From Orenia metallireducens (lineage in GTDB: Bacteria > Bacillota > Halanaerobiia > Halobacteroidales > Halobacteroidaceae), in assembly GCF_003001995.1 (NCBI RefSeq), contig NZ_PVNB01000037.1, forward strand, positions 1 to 33,841: DNA of 33,841 nt, given 5' to 3'. Below the pieces are notes generated by a model. That model was not told the origin of the DNA, did not search any database, and was given only the letters and a program-made list of their open reading frames with translations. Position numbers and translations under genes: made by a program. Below, piece after piece: positions 19,164 through 33,700 of this stretch (the stretch's first letter is position 1; each line of letters starts with the position of its first letter).

Positions 19164-21110
19164 TTAATATAAGCTAATAATTGAAATTGAACCTTCAGGA
19201 TCATTAGCTGGAGTTTGATTATAGTATCCACTTACCTCTTCACCATCAACCTCTTGATATTCAGGCTCTCCTTCATTAGCTACCAATACTTTGCTGCCAT
19301 CGGGAGTAAAGGTTAGCATATCAGGTAGATAGCCTACTTCAATATCTGTAATCAGTTTTTCATTTTCAGTATCAAAGAACAATACTTTACCTCTATTAGT
19401 GGCTGGATTTTCTGCAGGAACAGCGATAGCAGCTAATCCTCCAGCAGGATGAACAGCAACACAGGTTACATCATCTGCACTAAATCCATTCAATTGATCT
19501 GCGAGGTCACTGATTCTAATTCTTGAATCATCATTTTCTGTATAATTGTCCACACTTCCTGCGGTTAAATTTGAGATATCTACAATATCTAATGATTTTT
19601 TATCCCCATTGACTAAAAGTAACTTTTGAGTCTTATAATCATAATTTACTATCTCTGCTCCACCTTCATCAAACTCTGAGCCTGTAGTATATCTACCACT
19701 TAAATCTAAAGTACCATCTGTATTTACTTCAAAAATAACTACAGTCCCAGAGATTTCGTAGGAGACCAATAAAAGGGGTTTATCTATTGGAGAGTGATTT
19801 GCTGATACGAATTTGATTCCTTCAGGTCCTAAATCGCCAGCATTATTATTTTTCATCTGAGTTTCAGTTGCTTCCAGATCTCTGGTATCATTATTATAGC
19901 TCATATAGGCTGGAGAGTGTGGGTTGCTTACATCATAAACCATAACTCCCCCGATCTTTTCAAGACCAATAAAGGCAAAAACTTTAGTTCCAACCCTTCC
20001 TACATCGATACCTTCAGGCGAAGGACCACTGTTATCACTTTCTTTTTCAGCTTTCATCTCTTCATCATTGTTATCTAGGTTAAACTTCGTATAATCATTG
20101 TCAACATATTCTGCAACTTTCTGTTCAATTTGATCTCCACTATCATATACTTGCTCTGCATCTTTATCCCAGATTGAGAATGATCTAGCACCAAAGGCAT
20201 ATAAATTTTCATGGTTGCCGTCATTATCATCGTCTCCAAGATATTTATAGATGCCTAGCTTACCTACCTTCTCTTTATCGGAAAAATCACTTGCGTTTGT
20301 TACACTTGAGTCCATAGCTACATCCTCTGCATCTAATTCATCATCAGTATCACCAACCCATAAGTCTTCTCCTTCATTGGCTGTAAAGATATAATCTACT
20401 CCATCAATATTAAAATAGGCGATTGAATCAGGTTGATAGATTCCATATAGATTTTGGTAAGTTGTAATATTGATCTGCTCATCTTTATGACTGGCATCAA
20501 GTCCATTTCCAGCTTGACCATGATCTTTAAATCCTAAGCCTACAACTTTGATTATCTCTTGACTTTCAATATCAACGACTGCTACTGCATTATTCTCCTG
20601 TAAAGTAACCCAAGCAGTCTTAGAATCAGCAGAGATAGCTATGTATTCAGGTTCATAACATTTTGCAGCAGAGGCTGCATTGGGATGGATTAAAATACTA
20701 TCTTCATTTTCAGTAGTAACACCTGTAAAAGTAGCCTGTTTAGGGTTAGGTGTAAGGTTATTTAAATCAGGCTCTTTATTGGCTATAAAATTAATATCAC
20801 CTGACTCTTTGGATACTGTTCTACTTTCAGGATTAAACCAATAGTTATCTTTAGCAGGTGTTATTAAATTATTATCTTTAAGACCTGACTTACTCCATTG
20901 TCCATTTTGATTGGTTTTAGCAGTACCATCAGCATTGCTGAAATTCAAGATAACACCTTCTACTCCAGTATCTTCAGAATCGATAATCTCACCAGAGACT
21001 GAATAGCTGCTGCTATCAGTACTATCATCGTTATCACTACATCCTACTAATGTGATTAGACCTAAAATTATTAATGATATCATTAATAATTTTTTGCAAT
21101 TAATCTTCAT
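19164..21110 (-). CDS. Choice-of-anchor I type lipoprotein (beta-propeller), probable Pho regulon member
   Basis: A 648-residue exported lipoprotein with lipobox LVGC (C24), followed by Ser+1. Residues about 32-110 form a small beta-rich module (SVSGEIIDSEDTGVEGVILN). From about 125 onward lies a YncE/LVIVD-like propeller of the choice-of-anchor I family, with motifs such as DFSDKEKVGKLGIY, YAFGARSFSIWD, GPSPEGIDVG and AGDLGPEGIKF. Acidic loops could bind calcium. The ribosome binding site AAGGAGTG precedes the ATG on the minus strand. Four PhoP-like repeats upstream suggest induction by phosphate limitation. Some family members are annotated near phosphatases, but I see no phosphatase catalytic motif. 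Confidence 0.8.
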   Translation of the reverse strand: MKINCKKLLMISLIILGLITLVGCSDNDDSTDSSSYSVSGEIIDSEDTGVEGVILNFSNADGTAKTNQNGQWSKSGLKDNNLITPAKDNYWFNPESRTVSKESGDINFIANKEPDLNNLTPNPKQATFTGVTTENEDSILIHPNAASAAKCYEPEYIAISADSKTAWVTLQENNAVAVVDIESQEIIKVVGLGFKDHGQAGNGLDASHKDEQINITTYQNLYGIYQPDSIAYFNIDGVDYIFTANEGEDLWVGDTDDELDAEDVAMDSSVTNASDFSDKEKVGKLGIYKYLGDDDNDGNHENLYAFGARSFSIWDKDAEQVYDSGDQIEQKVAEYVDNDYTKFNLDNNDEEMKAEKESDNSGPSPEGIDVGRVGTKVFAFIGLEKIGGVMVYDVSNPHSPAYMSYNNDTRDLEATETQMKNNNAGDLGPEGIKFVSANHSPIDKPLLLVSYEISGTVVIFEVNTDGTLDLSGRYTTGSEFDEGGAEIVNYDYKTQKLLLVNGDKKSLDIVDISNLTAGSVDNYTENDDSRIRISDLADQLNGFSADDVTCVAVHPAGGLAAIAVPAENPATNRGKVLFFDTENEKLITDIEVGYLPDMLTFTPDGSKVLVANEGEPEYQEVDGEEVSGYYNQTPANDPEGSISIISLY

Positions 21111-21255
21111 AATTCAACACTCCTTCTTATTGATTTTTAGTCTCTATCAACTATTCTAAATTTTATTGTAGGTAGTCTCCCCTCATAAAGTTGATAAATC
21201 CTCTAAATTTTATAAGCTTATATAGAAGACTCTATTTTATATTATTCCAAATTTA

Positions 21256-21294
21256 GGTTAAGGACTTATTAAGACTTTATTAAGAAAAGGTTAA
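21256..21294 (-). promoter_or_regulatory. PhoP-like box: four 11-bp-phased direct repeats
   Basis: Read on the minus strand: TTAACC, TTAATA, TTAATA, TTAACC, each separated by exactly 5 bp (plus-strand starts 21289, 21278, 21267, 21256). An extra TTAACT lies just upstream. This is the layout of Bacillus-type PhoP binding sites (TTAACA-like hexamers, 11-bp period). A TATAAA-like -10 lies about 20 bp downstream on the minus strand. Confidence 0.7.
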
Positions 21295-21461: not shown

Positions 21462-22220
21462 ATGATGAAAAGAATCGCAGTAATAGTCGTAGCCTTAGTC
21501 ATAGTATTAAATACTGCAACAGTCTTTGCTAATGACCAAATCGGTATGGGGTTTGATTATATGAAGTTAAATTATAAGTATAATGACAACCTAGAGCAGA
21601 ATATGGAAGCAAAGCAGGTGCGTGGTTCCTTTAGATTTACTGATGAGCTGGCTTTAGAAGCTGATTATTCCTTTGGTGGATATAATAATTATATCGATTC
21701 AGATTTTCAAAATATCGGTTTAGCTTTAAAGAAGGACTTTAATATTATCCCAGATACTAAGCTTTATGTTGGTGTTGGGGGTATTTACTCCAACTTTAAA
21801 ACTGACTTCTTTAACCAAGAATTATTCACTATTGAAAACAAGAGTGCAAACCTATTATTTGGTCTAGAAAGGGATTTAACTGATAGAATTGGATTCTTTA
21901 TAGATGGGGAGTATGGTTTAGCTGGTGATTATACTGTATCTTCACCATTATTAGAGGATAACAGTGAGTTTGAAGGTAATAGCTTAACTGACTATGAAAT
22001 CAATAGTAATTATTCTTTAGAAACTGGATTGACCTTTGCCTTAGCAGAAGATTTAACTGCTAAAGTTGGCTATAGAATCAAACAAGAGAATCTTAAAAAT
22101 AAAGCTTTTAGTGTGAACCTAGATACTCAAGACAGTAACAATATCCTCGATAGCTATAATATCACAGATATTGACCGTCTGACTCAAGGTGTATTTATAG
22201 GCGTTGAAACTAGATTTTAA
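21462..22220 (+). CDS. Outer-membrane beta-barrel protein
   Basis: A 252-residue exported protein with signal peptide (about 1-24, ending VFA-N). Alternating polar/non-polar strands follow in hairpin pairs, such as YMKLNYKYND, RGSFRFTDELALEADYSF, GLALKKDF and KLYVGVGGIYSNF. The last strand ends FIGVETRF with a terminal phenylalanine, the BamA-type C-terminal signal. I count roughly eight to twelve strands, so an OmpA/OmpW-like barrel is plausible. It requires an outer membrane, so the host is a diderm. GGAGGAGGG precedes two adjacent ATGs (21462, 21465). Substrate or role is unknown; the weak Fur-like site hints at iron. Confidence 0.75.
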   Translation: MMKRIAVIVVALVIVLNTATVFANDQIGMGFDYMKLNYKYNDNLEQNMEAKQVRGSFRFTDELALEADYSFGGYNNYIDSDFQNIGLALKKDFNIIPDTKLYVGVGGIYSNFKTDFFNQELFTIENKSANLLFGLERDLTDRIGFFIDGEYGLAGDYTVSSPLLEDNSEFEGNSLTDYEINSNYSLETGLTFALAEDLTAKVGYRIKQENLKNKAFSVNLDTQDSNNILDSYNITDIDRLTQGVFIGVETRF

Positions 22221-22457: not shown

Positions 22458-22931
22458 ATGTTAAAGCAAGAAGATGGTTTTACCTTGGTGGAAGTAATGA
22501 TGGTGATTGCAATTATTGGGATTCTAGCCTCACTATCCTTTCCAAAGTTCAAGGCTTATCTTGAATATTTGGAGTTAGCTACTGCTACTAACAAATTAGT
22601 TATGGACTTACAGTGGGCAAGGCAGCAAGCTATTATTAAAAAGGTTAAATATGGAGTTGTATTCTATCAAGCTGACAATAAATATCAGATTATTAAGGAT
22701 GAGGCTGTTAAGCAGATAATTAAAGAGGTAGACTTAAAGGAGAGTAAGGTCAAGCTAGGTAAGATAAGTTTTTATTATAGTGATGGTAAAAGTACTGGTC
22801 AAACAGCAGTCTTCTTCAAAACTCTTGGTAATATTGATGGAGGGAATGGGAGTGTAGAGCTAGTGAAGTTAGGCTATGGTACTAAGAAGATAATATTTTC
22901 TTCAAATGCAGGAGAATTGAATGTAGAGTAG
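22458..22931 (+). CDS. Minor type IV prepilin / GspH-FimT-like pseudopilin
   Basis: A 157-residue protein with a class III prepilin leader: short KQEDG, then FTLVEVMMVIAIIGILASL, with cleavage after Gly7, an N-methylated Phe, and Glu5 of the mature protein present. The hydrophobic helix is followed by a small globular domain with the LATATNKLVMDLQWARQQAI segment typical of GspH/FimT. First gene of the pilus operon. Its ribosome binding site is weak (AAGGT). Assigned as a minor pilin; distinguishing T2SS from T4P needs the missing core genes. Confidence 0.85.
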   Translation: MLKQEDGFTLVEVMMVIAIIGILASLSFPKFKAYLEYLELATATNKLVMDLQWARQQAIIKKVKYGVVFYQADNKYQIIKDEAVKQIIKEVDLKESKVKLGKISFYYSDGKSTGQTAVFFKTLGNIDGGNGSVELVKLGYGTKKIIFSSNAGELNVE

Positions 22932-22941
22932 GTGATGATTT

Positions 22942-23310
22942 GTGGATTATAATCTTAATGATGAAGCTGGGTTTACGATGATTGAACTCTTGGTAGCTCT
23001 CTCAATTTTAACGATGATATTACTTCCTTTAACCAAGCTGCTGATTGATAATAGCACTAAGATAATCGAGGCTAAGCAGTTAACTATAGCTACTAATTTA
23101 GCCAGATTAAAGCTAGAAGAGGAGAGAGCTAAGGTTTTTGGAGATATTAATAGTAGAGCTTTAGCTGAGATAGGAGAAGGTGGCTTTACTAATTATAAGT
23201 ATTTAGTTGAGGTTGATAGTATTGAAACAGAGGTTAAAGAGATTATAGTAAAGGTTTATTTTAAAGAGACCCTTAGAGCTGAATTAATTACTTTTATAAG
23301 GGATGTTTAG
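22942..23310 (+). CDS. Minor prepilin / GspI-like pseudopilin
   Basis: A 122-residue protein. The leader ends EAG with mature FTMIELLVALSILTMILLP; Glu5 is present. The segment NLARLKLEEERAKV after the helix is GspI-like. The start is a GTG, supported by AGGTGATG 5 bases upstream. It lies 10 bp after the first pilin gene. Confidence 0.83.
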   Translation: MDYNLNDEAGFTMIELLVALSILTMILLPLTKLLIDNSTKIIEAKQLTIATNLARLKLEEERAKVFGDINSRALAEIGEGGFTNYKYLVEVDSIETEVKEIIVKVYFKETLRAELITFIRDV

Positions 23311-23319
23311 GAGGAAAAG

Positions 23320-23778
23320 ATGATAAGGTTAAGAGATGAGAGGGGATATACACTGATAGAGCTGATGTTTGTTATAGTAATTCTAGGGATGGTAACGTCT
23401 TCATTATATTTAGTCAAGGAGAATATTTATAATACTTGGAGGTTTAATAAGCTAGAGTCTGTTTTAGAGCAGGAATTGAGGATAAGTTTGAATATGGTAG
23501 TTACTAATCTACAACAGGCTAAATTTATAAAGACGTTTAACAATAATCCTGCTTCTAAAATTGCCTATATAGATCAAAAAGGAGAGAAGAGAGTAATTTA
23601 TTATAGAGCAGGAGGTGGTCTCTGCTTAGATTATGACTACAATATTATCAGTAATAAGGTCAATTCTTTTGATTTAAGGCGTGTAGGTAACCTCTTATAT
23701 ATTACTTTAAAGATTGAAGATAAGGGCAAAGAAGAGTTATTAAAAACAGCAATCAAGATTAGAGCTGAACAATTATAA
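23320..23778 (+). CDS. Minor prepilin / GspJ-like pseudopilin
   Basis: A 152-residue protein: leader ending ERG, mature YTLIELMFVIVILGMV, Glu5 present. The segment VLEQELRISLNMVVTNLQQA following the helix is typical of GspJ/PilW-like pilins. AGGAGGAAAAG precedes the ATG. Part of the H-I-J-K tip-complex order. Confidence 0.83.
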   Translation: MIRLRDERGYTLIELMFVIVILGMVTSSLYLVKENIYNTWRFNKLESVLEQELRISLNMVVTNLQQAKFIKTFNNNPASKIAYIDQKGEKRVIYYRAGGGLCLDYDYNIISNKVNSFDLRRVGNLLYITLKIEDKGKEELLKTAIKIRAEQL

Positions 23779-23799
23779 TATTTGAACTGGGTGATAATT

Positions 23800-24603
23800 A
23801 TGATGGTCAAAGAGGATGGATATGCTTTATTTCTTGTTTTAATAATTTTAACGATCTTTGCTCTTCTCTTTCCAGCGGTATTAAGGCTGACTATAACTGA
23901 ATTTATGATTGCTAAGAACTATCAAGAGAGTATAAGCGATTATTACCTAATAGAGGGGATAGTTGATCTAGGAGTTAGCGAGGCTTATAATGGTTTAGAT
24001 AAGTTGGAGTATATTAGTCAGGCAAATTTACAACTTTTATGTAATAATGAGAAGTCTCTAGAAATAATAGATAGTAGCAATCATAAGCTAACAGTTAAAT
24101 ATAAAATACTAGAGATAGTCGACGAGAGCAGTAAGGTTAATATCAATATAGCTAGTAAAGAGATGTTAGCCTCCTTAGATGAAATAGGAGAGAGTATAGC
24201 AGAGGATATTATTGCTAAAAGGGACTTTAATACTATAGAAGAGTTATCTCAAGTCAGTGGAATAGGTAATGCTGGTGGTGAATCTGAGAGTAAGACTTAC
24301 GAGAATATAAAGGATGATGTTACTGTTAGATCAGATGGAAGGATAAATATAAATACTGCCTCTAGTTCGGTCTTAAAATCCTTAAGTAATATTGGTGATA
24401 CTTTATTTGATAATATCAAGTCAAGTAGACCCTTTGCTAATAAAATTGATATTAAGAGTGTTGATGGAATTGGGGATGTTATCTACTCTAATTTAGAGAA
24501 TAAAATCAAAGTAACTTCACATAATTTTAAAGTGAGATTAGAAGTAAGTATTGAGGATAAAGAAATTAAGAGGGAGATAACAAGATTTATAGAGTTAAAG
24601 TGA
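23800..24603 (+). CDS. GspK-like pseudopilin with two helix-hairpin-helix modules
   Basis: A protein of about 267 residues: leader KEDG, mature YALFLVLIILTIFALLFP. Mature position 5 is Leu rather than Glu, as expected for GspK tip pilins. After the pilin helix come two SAM/HhH-type modules, one starting VNINIASKEMLASLDEIG and one ININTASSSVLKSLSNIG, each ending in a GIG motif. GspK normally carries such NxNTA motifs, but the large extra domain of proteobacterial GspK is absent. Two adjacent ATGs (23800, 23803) follow GGGTGA; the upstream TTG at 23782 is less likely. It probably caps the pseudopilus. Confidence 0.82.
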   Translation: MMVKEDGYALFLVLIILTIFALLFPAVLRLTITEFMIAKNYQESISDYYLIEGIVDLGVSEAYNGLDKLEYISQANLQLLCNNEKSLEIIDSSNHKLTVKYKILEIVDESSKVNINIASKEMLASLDEIGESIAEDIIAKRDFNTIEELSQVSGIGNAGGESESKTYENIKDDVTVRSDGRININTASSSVLKSLSNIGDTLFDNIKSSRPFANKIDIKSVDGIGDVIYSNLENKIKVTSHNFKVRLEVSIEDKEIKREITRFIELK

Positions 24604-24679
24604 TTGAATTGTAATATTTACATATAGTTTTATCTTTAAAGCAAATTCTAAAATTATATAAAGGTGGGGCAAATAAACT

Positions 24680-25195
24680 ATGAATTTAATTCCATTAGAA
24701 TATCGTTCAAAAATTAAATATCAGAAGGAAAAAAGAAGGAATATTGTCATTTCTTTGTTTATATTAGCTATTATGCTTGGTTTTACCCTTTATAACTATA
24801 AGAGTATCCTGACTTATCAAGAGGAGATGATAGTTCTTAATAATAGATTGGATTCTCTAAAACCTGTAATGGCAGAGAAGCGATTATTAGATGAGCAGAG
24901 AGCAAAACTTAAAGATAAGAAAGAGTTAATCAATAGATTATCCCAAGATATCAGTTACCACCAACTTCTTATAGATCTTAATCGCTTAATCCCTGAAGAT
25001 GTAGTTTTAAATAATTTTATAATTAATCAGAATCAACACTTACAGATCAATGCTGAAAGCATTAATAATGGCAAGGTTATTAAGACAGTCAATCAGATGG
25101 AAGAGTACCCTTACTTTGCTGAAATTAGTCTTAAATATAGTGAGGTTAGAGAAAATAAGGTGGTTTTTGGGATAGAGGGGAGGCTGGATTTATGA
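24680..25195 (+). CDS. PilN-like pilus assembly protein
   Basis: A 171-residue bitopic protein: short cytoplasmic tail MNLIPLEYRSKIK, the usual PilN opening (N-L-I/L-P), one helix (about 23-40), coiled coil (about 45-90), then a ferredoxin-like domain (about 93-171). PilN binds PilM through the tail; no pilM is in this window. It overlaps the next gene by four bases (ATGA). Confidence 0.8.
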   Translation: MNLIPLEYRSKIKYQKEKRRNIVISLFILAIMLGFTLYNYKSILTYQEEMIVLNNRLDSLKPVMAEKRLLDEQRAKLKDKKELINRLSQDISYHQLLIDLNRLIPEDVVLNNFIINQNQHLQINAESINNGKVIKTVNQMEEYPYFAEISLKYSEVRENKVVFGIEGRLDL

Positions 25196-25731
25196 GTGAT
25201 AATATAAGAAGAAAGAGATTAGAATCATTAGCCCCATTAATTTTAGCTATCGTACTATCTTCTTTAATCTACTGCTTTAATATTCAATTAAGTAGGGTCA
25301 AGGCTAGAGAATTGAAGTTGGCTGTTAAGCATAAAGAAGATAATATTGAACGATTAAGGCAGCTGGCTCTTAATCCCAAAAAGCAGAGAGTTATGAGAGA
25401 TGAAGTATTTAAAGAGAAGCTAAGGTTAGACGCTACTGTACCTTCTGAGCTGGGATTGACTAAATTCTTAAAAGATTTAGAAGTATTGATTGCTGATAAT
25501 CAAATTAATTTGACTAACCTATCACCTCAAGATTTTATAATGGAAGATAATTATATTAAGGCTCCAATTAACTTATTATTTTCAGCAGACTATCAGCGGC
25601 TAATAGCTTTCTTCTCCCAATTAGAAGCCATGGATAGGCTGCTGACAGTAGAGAATCTCTCTATCATCAAAGATAAGAGTAATAGTTTGAAGATTAAGAC
25701 ACTATTATATATTTATTCCTTAAAGGAGTGA
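25192..25731 (+). CDS. PilO/GspM-like pilus assembly protein
   Basis: A 179-residue bitopic protein: basic start, one membrane helix (about 11-28), coiled coil (about 32-70), then a PilO-like domain starting near PSELGLTKFLKDLEVLIADN. Translation is coupled to pilN by the ATGA overlap. PilN and PilO normally form an inner-membrane heterodimer. Confidence 0.78.
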   Translation: MSDNIRRKRLESLAPLILAIVLSSLIYCFNIQLSRVKARELKLAVKHKEDNIERLRQLALNPKKQRVMRDEVFKEKLRLDATVPSELGLTKFLKDLEVLIADNQINLTNLSPQDFIMEDNYIKAPINLLFSADYQRLIAFFSQLEAMDRLLTVENLSIIKDKSNSLKIKTLLYIYSLKE

Positions 25732-25743
25732 ACTAAAATAGAA

Positions 25744-26301
25744 GTGAATAGTAAACTTAGCAGGAAGAAAAGAGAGTGGATTATTAAGCAGAAGATAAAG
25801 TTAGTCTTATCAATAATTTTAGTAATAGTAGCCATCTTCTTATGGACAAGAATCTTATTAGTAAAGGATAGTAAGCAGCCAGTTACTATAACTAAGACAG
25901 AAGAGAAGAATAATACTAGCAGAAAAATAGTCAATCAGATAAGAGAGACTAAGGATCCTAAGGGAAGTAAGCAATATGGACTTAAGAATAGCAAAAGAGA
26001 GTCTCCCTTTGCTAAATCAACTAATAGTAAGCTAGAGTTTAGCTACAATAATCAGATCAAAGATAACAGAAAGAATAATATACATCAACTCAATTCAAGT
26101 AATTCTCCTTTTGCCTTATTAGGGATTACTAAAAAGGGTAAATCTTCTCTGGCTGTAGTGAAGGTAGAGGATAGGATTTATCTGCTTAGAGAGGGTGAAA
26201 GGCTAGAAGATTTTATGATAAAGAAGATAGAGAATAAAGGAATTATATTATTAAGAGATAAGATAGAATATAGATTAGATATAGTCAAATATAGAATTTA
26301 A
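25744..26301 (+). CDS. GspC/PilP-like inner-membrane linker protein
   Basis: A 185-residue bitopic protein: basic N terminus, one helix (about 20-40), a long disordered Asn/Lys/Ser linker (about 45-117), and a C-terminal beta domain from FALLGITKKGKSSLAVVKV to DKIEYRLDIVKYRI. That domain resembles the HR/PilP homology region (GxxxxGxxxxAVV). The GTG at 25744 is 13 bases after AAGGAGTG, whereas the ATA at 25738 lies at ideal distance, so the true start may be that rare codon. It would link PilN/PilO to a secretin encoded elsewhere. Confidence 0.65.
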   Translation: MNSKLSRKKREWIIKQKIKLVLSIILVIVAIFLWTRILLVKDSKQPVTITKTEEKNNTSRKIVNQIRETKDPKGSKQYGLKNSKRESPFAKSTNSKLEFSYNNQIKDNRKNNIHQLNSSNSPFALLGITKKGKSSLAVVKVEDRIYLLREGERLEDFMIKKIENKGIILLRDKIEYRLDIVKYRI

Positions 26302-32136: not shown

Positions 32137-32569
32137 GTTGATTTGTAAAACAGTTTACTTATCGATCAATCTTAAAAGAATAAAAAATCAAAAAATTCAA
32201 AAAACATTTACAATATATGTATAATATGTTAAGATAATGTTATAAAGATCTTATTACCAAATTAAGAAGTTGTAGCTTGAGCTACTTACAGTGATAATAG
32301 CTATACTTCGATTTATATGGTGATTACAGTAATTTATTATCGAGCACTTTAGACTGGATTAGTGGAAAACGATATCCTATACTACTGACACTTCTAAAAT
32401 TTTAAAAATAATATTTTTGACATTCATCTATACTAGTTATCTTCCTTATGTTCTGCTGATGGTATTGAATCGATTGACACTATTCTTGTGGCAGATATTA
32501 TTCAAAATAATTCCTCAGCTCTTAATTTGGATGAGATCCAAACAAATTAATTAAGGAGGAAATAGTACA
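32137..32569 (+). other. Long upstream region of the pectate lyase gene
   Basis: TATAAT at 32220-32225 with a weak TTCAAA -35 could start a leader of about 340 nt. The leader includes a perfect hairpin GTAGCT/AGCTAC (about 32270-32284). An imperfect hairpin with TCGAT/ATCGA ends lies near 32308-32343. TGTAAA-ACAG-TTTAC near 32144 is an inverted repeat. No known riboswitch was recognised. Confidence 0.35.
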
Positions 32570-33700
32570 ATGAGTAAAAGTTTAACCCAGAAAAGAGTGT
32601 TAAGTTTTGCGTTTATGTTCTTGGTTCTGTTCACTTTGTTATTCAGTGTTGGTTTTGCTAAGTCGGTGGATGCTTTTGATTCGGATAATTATTATAGTAT
32701 TATTGCTAGGCATAGTGGTAAAGGGTTAGAGGTCTATAATTTTTCAACAGAGAACGGTGCGAATATAAATCAATGGGACTATTGGGGTGGAGATAATCAG
32801 CAATGGCAGATAATCGATTTAGGAAATGGTTACTATAGTATAATTAATAAATACAGTGGCAAGGCATTGGATGTTTATGAGATGTCTACTGCAAGTGGAG
32901 CTAATATAGATCAATGGGAATATTGGGGTGGAGAAGGACAACAGTGGAAAATCGAGGAAACTGTCAGTGGATATTACACTATTACTAGTAGATTGAGTGG
33001 AAAGGTATTAGATGTTCTTGATCTCTCTACTGATGATGGTGCTAATGTTATCCAATGGGATAATTATACTGCAGATAATCAATTGTTTGCAATACAACCA
33101 GCTTCTAGTAATGGTGGTGGAACAATTACTATTACTGAAACAATTGTGGTTGAAGCTGGAGAAACTTATGATGGTGGAGGAGCTACTATAGTTGCTCAAG
33201 GTATGGGTGATGGTAGTCAAGCTGAAGACCAAGATCCTATATTTAGATTAGAAGATGGAGCAACTTTGAAGAATGTTCGTATTGGTGCACCAGGTTGTGA
33301 TGGTGTGCATACTTATGGTGATGTAACTGTGATGAATGTAGTCTGGGAAGATGTTGGAGAAGATGCGTTAACTGTTAAAGAAAGTGGTAATGTAGTTATT
33401 TCTGGTGGTGCAGCCTATAATGCTAGTGATAAGGTATTCCAGATAAATGCTGCTTCTACTTTCACAGTCCAAGGTTTTACAGCTAGTAACTTTGGTAAAC
33501 TGATTCGTCAGTGTGGGGGGACAACCTTTACAGCTACAATCTATCTTGATGGTGTCACAGTAACCGGTGGAGATGAGTGTATTGCTCGTACCGATAGCAG
33601 TACTACTCAATTATATTATAGAGATATAACAGCTTATAGTAATGATGATAGTTTTACATGGTGGATTTTCCCATCGTCATCACAAGTACAAGCCTACTAA
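32570..33700 (+). CDS. Secreted ricin-lectin / PL3-family pectate lyase
   Basis: A 376-residue exported enzyme. Signal peptide about 1-35. A ricin-type beta-trefoil (about 40-181) has three repeats, each with an SGK..LDV-like turn and QQW, QQW, QLF ends, for carbohydrate binding. A GGG linker leads to a PL3 pectate lyase parallel beta-helix (about 190-376). Signatures are [40 protein letters not shown] and [10 protein letters not shown]. It should cleave polygalacturonate by calcium-dependent beta-elimination outside the cell. GGAGG precedes the ATG. Monocistronic, with its own terminator. Confidence 0.9.

Follow-up and report, generated by a model that had tools for sequence, protein, structure and literature searches.

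Four direct repeats in an 11-bp register lie upstream of a lipoprotein gene of Orenia metallireducens. They probably form a phosphate-starvation (Pho) site of the organism's own PhoB/PhoP-type regulator, and the lipoprotein would handle phosphoesters at the cell surface. Judged from the sequences compared here, Pho control of the lipoprotein gene is well supported. The stretch of DNA studied (the window) was 33,841 nt long and corresponded to positions 1-33,841 of the forward strand of contig NZ_PVNB01000037.1 (GCF_003001995.1). The site was characterised by pattern match, shuffles and a pstS-trained matrix, and it is composed as follows:

21256..21294, minus strand: PhoP/PhoB-type box, four direct repeats in 11-bp register
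21294-21289, minus strand: repeat 1, TTAACC
21283-21278, minus strand: repeat 2, TTAATA
21272-21267, minus strand: repeat 3, TTAATA
21261-21256, minus strand: repeat 4, TTAACC

Read on the minus strand from 21294 to 21256, the box is TTAACC-TTTTC-TTAATA-AAGTC-TTAATA-AGTCC-TTAACC. The exact phased pattern TTAACC-5-TTAATA-5-TTAATA-5-TTAACC described in the sequence-only reading was thus confirmed without a mismatch. The PhoP box or PHO box has the consensus TT(A/C/T)A(C/T)A, and four TT(A/C/T)A(C/T)-type units in direct 11-bp register were present, where at least two are taken to make a box. In a review, the units of the PhoP box of Bacillus subtilis and of the PHO box of PhoB are described as 11-nt direct repeats (PMC4415409). 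As in those boxes, the four hexamers precede the gene of a secreted protein in a genome that encodes the regulator and its kinase; unlike the consensus, units 1 and 4 end in CC and not in CA. Between the box and the start codon of the lipoprotein gene lie 145 bp. Counted from the end of repeat 3, the distance was 156 bp, compared with 59-113 bp in most of the pstS genes scored.

The pattern was rare. In 100 dinucleotide-shuffled versions of the window it never appeared, even with up to three mismatches allowed. TTAA repeated four times at 11-bp steps occurred at four places in the 4.1-Mb genome, and the backward-read pattern at none. With both strands and overlapping registers included, four units at up to two mismatches gave 79 matches genome-wide and the backward control 22; many of the 79 had no evident phosphate link. 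A unit matrix was trained on 21 pstS boxes from relatives, namely the pstS loci scoring at least 12 minus the two of the own genome and minus L195. With this matrix, the box ranked first in the window with 30.9 (four units) and 22.6 (three units), the next separate site reached 14.4 (four units), and the score of the box was attained in none of 200 simulated windows. With a 28-bp matrix that also weighs the spacers, the box was second in the window (15.5) behind a site at 32254 on the minus strand (16.7), a value that 5 of 60 simulated windows attained; this matrix is weaker evidence than the unit matrix. The site at 32254-32227 (minus strand) is a box-like run in the gap before a 376-aa gene at 32570, and it scored low with the unit matrix. 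In addition, an Rfam search of the window gave no match at gathering score.

The regulator required for such a site was found in the genome. The gene order is response regulator, histidine kinase, pstS, a 557-aa frame, a second pstS, pstC, pstA, pstB and phoU, with pstC, pstA and pstB named from their reading frames. The best match of the regulator, encoded at L040:2583-3281, was TIGR02154 PhoB with 293.6 bits, which was 2.6 under the cut-off of 296.2; it nearly tied with YycF/WalR (293.0 bits, under the cut-off of 340). The kinase scored 431.9 for PnpS, exceeding the cut-off of 400, and 448.5 for WalK, under the cut-off of 725. The sequence-only reading would have been refuted by the absence of a PhoP/PhoR pair from the genome. 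This refutation fails, since a PhoB/PhoP-type regulator with a PnpS/PhoR-type kinase directly precedes pst.

The same motif was also found before known phosphate genes. The own genome and 14 related ones gave 34 matches; 30 pstS-family loci were taken from these, 29 of them with a usable frame. A three-unit score of at least 12 within 250 bp upstream was reached by 24 of these 29 pstS-family genes, and a reverse-strand score of at least 14 by 10 of the 29. With the unit matrix, the five best boxes among 12 own genes scored were those of pstS2 (25.1), pstS1 (23.6), the lipoprotein (22.6), a UgpB-like gene (21.4; best match UgpB, under that family's cut-off) and a PAP2 gene (21.3). Weaker boxes preceded the 5'-nucleotidase (15.7), two alkaline phosphatases (15.6 and 13.4) and a UshA-like gene (13.9).

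Several further loci of the genome were observed in the course of this comparison. At L050 (G000:C5:18718), a Pho box is followed by the PAP2 phosphatase gene and a glycosyltransferase gene whose best matches were glycolipid synthases, under their cut-offs; this might be a phosphate-starvation lipid remodelling operon. Two box-like sites 500 bp apart precede an MJ1255-type glycosyltransferase gene (L054/L055; G000:C16:86144 and 86647). The locus L233 (G000:C6:95000-111000) encodes, among EAL-like genes (by eye), two alkaline phosphatases of PF00245 and a lipoprotein of the calcineurin-like phosphoesterase type; of the two alkaline phosphatases, one carries LysM and the other begins like a lipoprotein. 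Box-like sites precede both alkaline phosphatases, and strong sites precede two genes with no evident phosphate link. Moreover, a candidate phosphate-regulated small RNA of about 65 nt, with a Pho box and a -10, was seen downstream of phoU in all three congeners compared:

L040:12999-13123 (G000:C23), L239:1567-1692 and L240:2995-3123 (minus strand): candidate small RNA

In this candidate, 32 of the first 35 alignment columns were identical, and the terminator stem varied in sequence with its pairing retained. A 95-nt stretch that includes promoter bases gave a folding z of -6.5. The candidate belonged to no Rfam family at its cut-off, and it had matches at E 1e-3 in 8 of 59 class genomes, strong in three (the congeners).

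The sister species (G001) allowed the site to be compared. The neighbourhood is the same there and the lipoprotein gene is a relic (L041:4574-5460), in which the signal peptide is followed by a short non-family stretch, stops, and the final ~95 residues, these 81% identical. Next to this relic, the outer-membrane gene is still present and the box largely preserved. Repeat 4 was damaged, and the candidate -10 region GAATAATAT was retained. The TTAAY cores were identical at 18 of 20 positions versus 9 of 18 for the bases between the repeats (one-sided Fisher p 0.008, from one species pair). These values bear on the reading that the repeats are a functionless chance run in AT-rich intergenic DNA. 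Long TTAA runs do occur elsewhere in the genome (C2:7756, C28:36986, C46:9652 and C6:103581), near genes not evidently linked to phosphate, and the spacer-aware matrix was not decisive. However, the cores have outlasted the spacers, neither the shuffles nor the simulated windows reached the site, and boxes of the same kind stand before the genes of relatives, so a chance run is highly unlikely.

The promoter and the gene on the other side of the box were examined next to these results, with the following features:

21239..21244, minus strand: candidate -10 hexamer TAATAT, 11 bp past repeat 4 and at offset 22 from the end of repeat 3
21120..21125, minus strand: likely ribosome-binding site AAGGAG, by eye
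21462..22220, plus strand: divergent gene for a 252-aa outer-membrane beta-barrel protein (PF13505), frame intact in G001, not assigned to the box

Of the candidate -10 hexamers, TAAAAT at offset 27 scored best, ahead of TAATAT at 22. In clade pstS promoters with a box, the best -10 started 20 bases past repeat 3 in 16 of 22 cases; in boxed choice-of-anchor I promoters it lay at 20-22 in 10 of 27. By sequence, the lipoprotein promoter therefore seems similar to the Pho promoters of the clade without being a copy of them. The sequence-only reading had called the site a textbook PhoP box, which was an overstatement. The best -10 is off the offset usual in the clade; the TTAA core is palindromic and readable on both strands, which raises reverse-strand scores; and boxes equally strong precede own genes with no evident phosphate link (L233:8582 with 22.6 and L233:13511 with 22.1, and, with the spacer-aware matrix, a site in L049 with 22.1).

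The ambiguity of the strands matters for a second reading, in which another OmpR/PhoB-family regulator reads the plus strand and drives the divergent outer-membrane gene. The CiaR-like consensus is NTTAAG-N5-WTTAAG, and the plus strand of the box, GTTAAG-N5-ATTAAG-N5-ATTAAG-N5-GTTAAA, fits this direct-repeat consensus. Furthermore, at least one further regulator of the family is encoded in the genome, and the pst-adjacent regulator itself nearly ties with YycF. Against this, the pyrimidine of the minus-strand unit was retained in G001 in four of four repeats and the plus-strand G in one of three, which favours the minus-strand reading towards the lipoprotein. The three-unit sense score was 18.8 towards the lipoprotein versus 10.7 towards the outer-membrane gene, and pst, UgpB-like and phosphatase genes likewise have boxes of the minus-strand sense upstream. 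Control of the outer-membrane gene by such a regulator is consequently improbable. Beyond that gene, at 22458-26301 of the window, a run of short genes whose products have prepilin-like N-termini precedes genes for pilus-assembly-like proteins (by eye); the whole is probably a minor pseudopilin cluster of a type IV pilus or of type II secretion.

Placement of the lipoprotein in the phosphate regulon, as first suggested from the letters of the window, was thus supported computationally by the regulator-kinase pair beside pst, the boxes of own pstS1, pstS2, UgpB-like and PAP2 genes, the retention of the cores in G001, and the boxes of related genes described below. The four repeats are the predicted binding site of the regulator encoded with its kinase just before pst. 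At low phosphate, the phosphorylated regulator would bind the 11-bp repeats head-to-tail and would help RNA polymerase to transcribe the lipoprotein gene. The product is predicted to be lipid-anchored outside the cytoplasm, with a signal peptide, a lipobox and a ~90-residue domain followed by the propeller, and its likeliest role would be phosphoester handling at the cell surface alongside the other phosphatases of the organism. The gene is organised as follows:

19164..21110, minus strand: lipoprotein, 648 aa, choice-of-anchor I (PF22494/NF038117) beta-propeller, circularly permuted
20766..21110, minus strand: N-terminal cassette with signal peptide, lipobox LVGC (Cys24) and a ~90-residue domain common to other secreted lipoproteins in the genome
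19725..20735, minus strand: propeller segment, residues 126-462, corresponding to the C-terminal propeller part of homologues
19176..19709, minus strand: propeller segment, residues 468-645, corresponding to the N-terminal propeller part of homologues

The protein scored 463.4 bits for NF038117 (cut-off 300) and 275.3 for PF22494 (cut-off 32). Together with the lipobox, read by eye, these scores bore out the earlier assignment of the gene to the choice-of-anchor I lipoproteins. Like other members of the family, it contained both propeller parts; unlike them, it was circularly permuted relative to 80 of 80 homologues (the best 80 of at least 579). Colinear order is not among the stated criteria for the family. 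An assembly error is unlikely, because the C-terminal end of the lipoprotein also ends the relic in G001. Polar positions conserved to at least 90% in 77 homologues were retained at 36 of 43. The changes D151C, D248E, R357E, K361S, E364S and R385K fall on almost invariant polar residues, conserved in 75-77 of the 77 homologues; of these six, D248E and R385K are mild exchanges. In addition, residue 550 was changed from S to C, with S in 70 of the 77 homologues.

PhoX, a phosphatase with a beta-propeller fold, has acidic sites for metals and basic residues that bind phosphate. By analogy with it, one may guess that the lost arginine and lysine would bind phosphate. Because the protein is permuted and six near-invariant polar residues are changed, catalysis by this copy appears doubtful. 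In view of the permutation and the loss of nearly invariant basic and acidic residues, the lipoprotein may hydrolyse phosphoesters or may only bind them.

A further reading accepts the box as real and Pho-controlled but holds that the lipoprotein no longer handles phosphate, being a diverged binding or structural surface protein that is perhaps heading to loss as in G001. The six substitutions fit this reading, as do a long branch of 1.09 in the tree, a gene surviving only as a relic in G001 and the lack of any propeller match in G002. However, 36 of 43 conserved polar positions are kept, two of the six changes are mild, and the 648-codon frame is open with box and anchor intact. Such a loss of function is possible, though on balance doubtful, and phosphoester handling under Pho control remains the preferred reading. 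In the tree, the lipoprotein grouped with cyanobacterial, acidobacterial, proteobacterial, bacteroidete and desulfobacterial rows (99/86), a placement that is unsure because of the long branch. The NF038117 cut-off was exceeded in 7 of 398 sampled genomes of the phylum, the own one included, and no other member of the own class was above the cut-off in this sample. Among 60 relatives, the propeller was matched only by the relic in G001 and marginally in G042 (E 9e-4).

Predicted structures gave a mean pLDDT of 75.5 for the window protein and 86.5 for the linear homologue L112. The alignment for the window protein had no N-half rows, so the C-terminal part of its model rests on its own sequence. 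Both models aligned with seven-bladed propellers, and they matched propellers of many kinds, with Z of 29.8-32.6 among the matches listed; matches of so many sorts say nothing on function. PhoX was not among the structural matches listed, which excludes nothing. In PMC11098088, PhoX is set beside Psip1 and described as six-bladed, in contrast with the seven-bladed propellers aligned here. A sequence search of solved structures returned one archaeal surface-layer propeller (E 1.8e-6) and two matches at chance level.

The cassette (residues 1-115) recurred in four other own proteins: a calcineurin-like phosphoesterase, the 5'-nucleotidase (box 15.7), an endonuclease/exonuclease/phosphatase-family protein behind the 5'-nucleotidase, and a GH53 galactanase (no box). 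Three of these carriers scored low upstream (C6_522 3.8, C22_906 -6.1 and the GH53 galactanase -1.7). Phosphoester enzymes thus made up three of the four other carriers. The cassette is also widespread in relatives, so it is only supportive of a phosphate link.

The choice-of-anchor I family was then considered as a whole. A search with the lipoprotein sequence alone confirmed 0 of 24 stretches, and an alignment query of seven domains was needed; across 84,980 genomes this query yielded at least 579 confirmed stretches, and the analysis used the best 80. From these, 62 Bacillota genes were scored after removal of 18, namely three open at the 5' end (L102, L139 and L143), 12 non-Bacillota genes, and three near-copies or same-genome genes (L100, L162 and L168). 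The box matrix used here was a consensus that had not been fitted to the tested genes. A three-unit sense score of at least 12 was reached upstream of 30 of the 62 Bacillota genes (from the best 80 of at least 579). On the opposite strand 9 of the 62 did so, and among control upstreams from these loci 8 of 263. At other spacings (7-10 and 12-16), 0-6 of the 62 reached 12, and in resampled sequence the mean was 2.2 and the maximum 7 of 62. Pairs of hexamers on the sense strand peaked at distances 11 (45), 22 (20) and 33 (14); all other distances between 6 and 40 gave 2-11. A weaker peak on the opposite strand (13 at distance 11) is what a partly palindromic motif would give. Outside the Bacillota, 2 of 11 genes scored reached 12 (L109 22.4 and L163 14.0). 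On these sequences, choice-of-anchor I genes appear to be often Pho-boxed in Bacillota, about half having no clear box in this test. Predicted Pho boxes in phage genomes are reported to have proved unreliable (PMC10976474).

Neighbouring genes were compared in 79 of the 80 loci (all but L100; the flanks differed in length). No neighbour gave a match to the alkaline phosphatase of L089 or to PstS, PstC, PstA and PhoU of the own genome; Ppk/Ppx, UgpB and the glycosyltransferase each occurred at a single locus. At L094, outside the best 80, ppk and ppx-like frames adjoin the choice-of-anchor I gene. The phosphate link of the family therefore rests on boxes and fusions, not on linkage to pst. Among the 80 homologues (the best of at least 579), domains at E 1e-5 comprised Metallophos in 18, which are thus fused to a calcineurin-like phosphoesterase, 5_nucleotid_C in 13 and PF00245 in one. 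The alkaline phosphatase fusion was L089, from the same genome as L100, and purple-acid-phosphatase-like fusions were L092 and L093. SLH domains were present in 27 of the 80, whereas the window protein has a lipobox anchor instead.

A relationship with annotated alkaline phosphatases was also found. With a Bacillus member as query, 9 of 50,697 phage records were matched (six phages, three recorded twice), all from Synechococcus phages and all annotated as alkaline phosphatase. The PhoA of the cyanophages S-SM1 and Sf-CH5 (L177 and L178) passed the PF22494 cut-off of 32 bits with 61.5 and 63.8, and both adjoin pstS. By these matches, the PF22494 family covers annotated alkaline phosphatases in the form of cyanophage PhoA. 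The window protein matched the two at E 7e-11 and 4e-12, with 24-25% identity over the main aligned part and, unlike them, in rotated order. The phage proteins retain an RxxKKxxEPE motif, where the window protein reads ESDNSGPSPE. By its published descriptions, the likeness would extend to PhoAaty, the atypical alkaline phosphatase of cyanobacteria (PMC4548154, PMC11098088). PhoAaty is described as having conserved D/E motifs and a Pro-Asp motif (PMC4548154), and phoA of Prochlorococcus MED4 as a distant homologue of PhoAaty (PMC11098088). We infer that PhoAaty as a whole may equal the choice-of-anchor I family, the link to the Synechococcus protein resting on what PMC11098088 reports. The hint of phosphoester scavenging in the sequence-only reading thus gained weight at the level of the family, through the phosphatase fusions and the kinship with cyanophage PhoA, and stood on weaker ground for the window protein with its six changed polar residues.

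We tentatively suggest, as a conceivable wider interpretation, that choice-of-anchor I is a phosphate-starvation family. Its members would be Pho-boxed surface propellers that hydrolyse phosphoesters or capture them. They would be kin to cyanophage PhoA, probably also to PhoAaty, and would repeatedly have gained phosphatase partners and anchors; the window protein would be a permuted branch with an altered active site. A literature search for "choice-of-anchor I" found no paper, other names and subscription journals being outside its scope. The animal biomineralisation proteins MSP130 may be related to choice-of-anchor I. If MSP130 also belongs to the family, the job of the bacterial ancestor would have been phosphate scavenging. 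In PMC6368272, MSP130 is presented as a protein of the skeletal matrix whose function is unclear, and a horizontal origin has been proposed for it (PMC4237138).

For the family, a widespread group with mainly a placeholder name would gain a testable physiological context from the Pho boxes in many Bacillota and the phosphatase fusions. PhoAaty is said in PMC11098088 to have "no defined HMM", and PF22494, which recognises two cyanophage PhoA, may serve as the missing one. Moreover, the permuted member of O. metallireducens, with its lost conserved residues, would provide a natural test of which residues are needed for activity.
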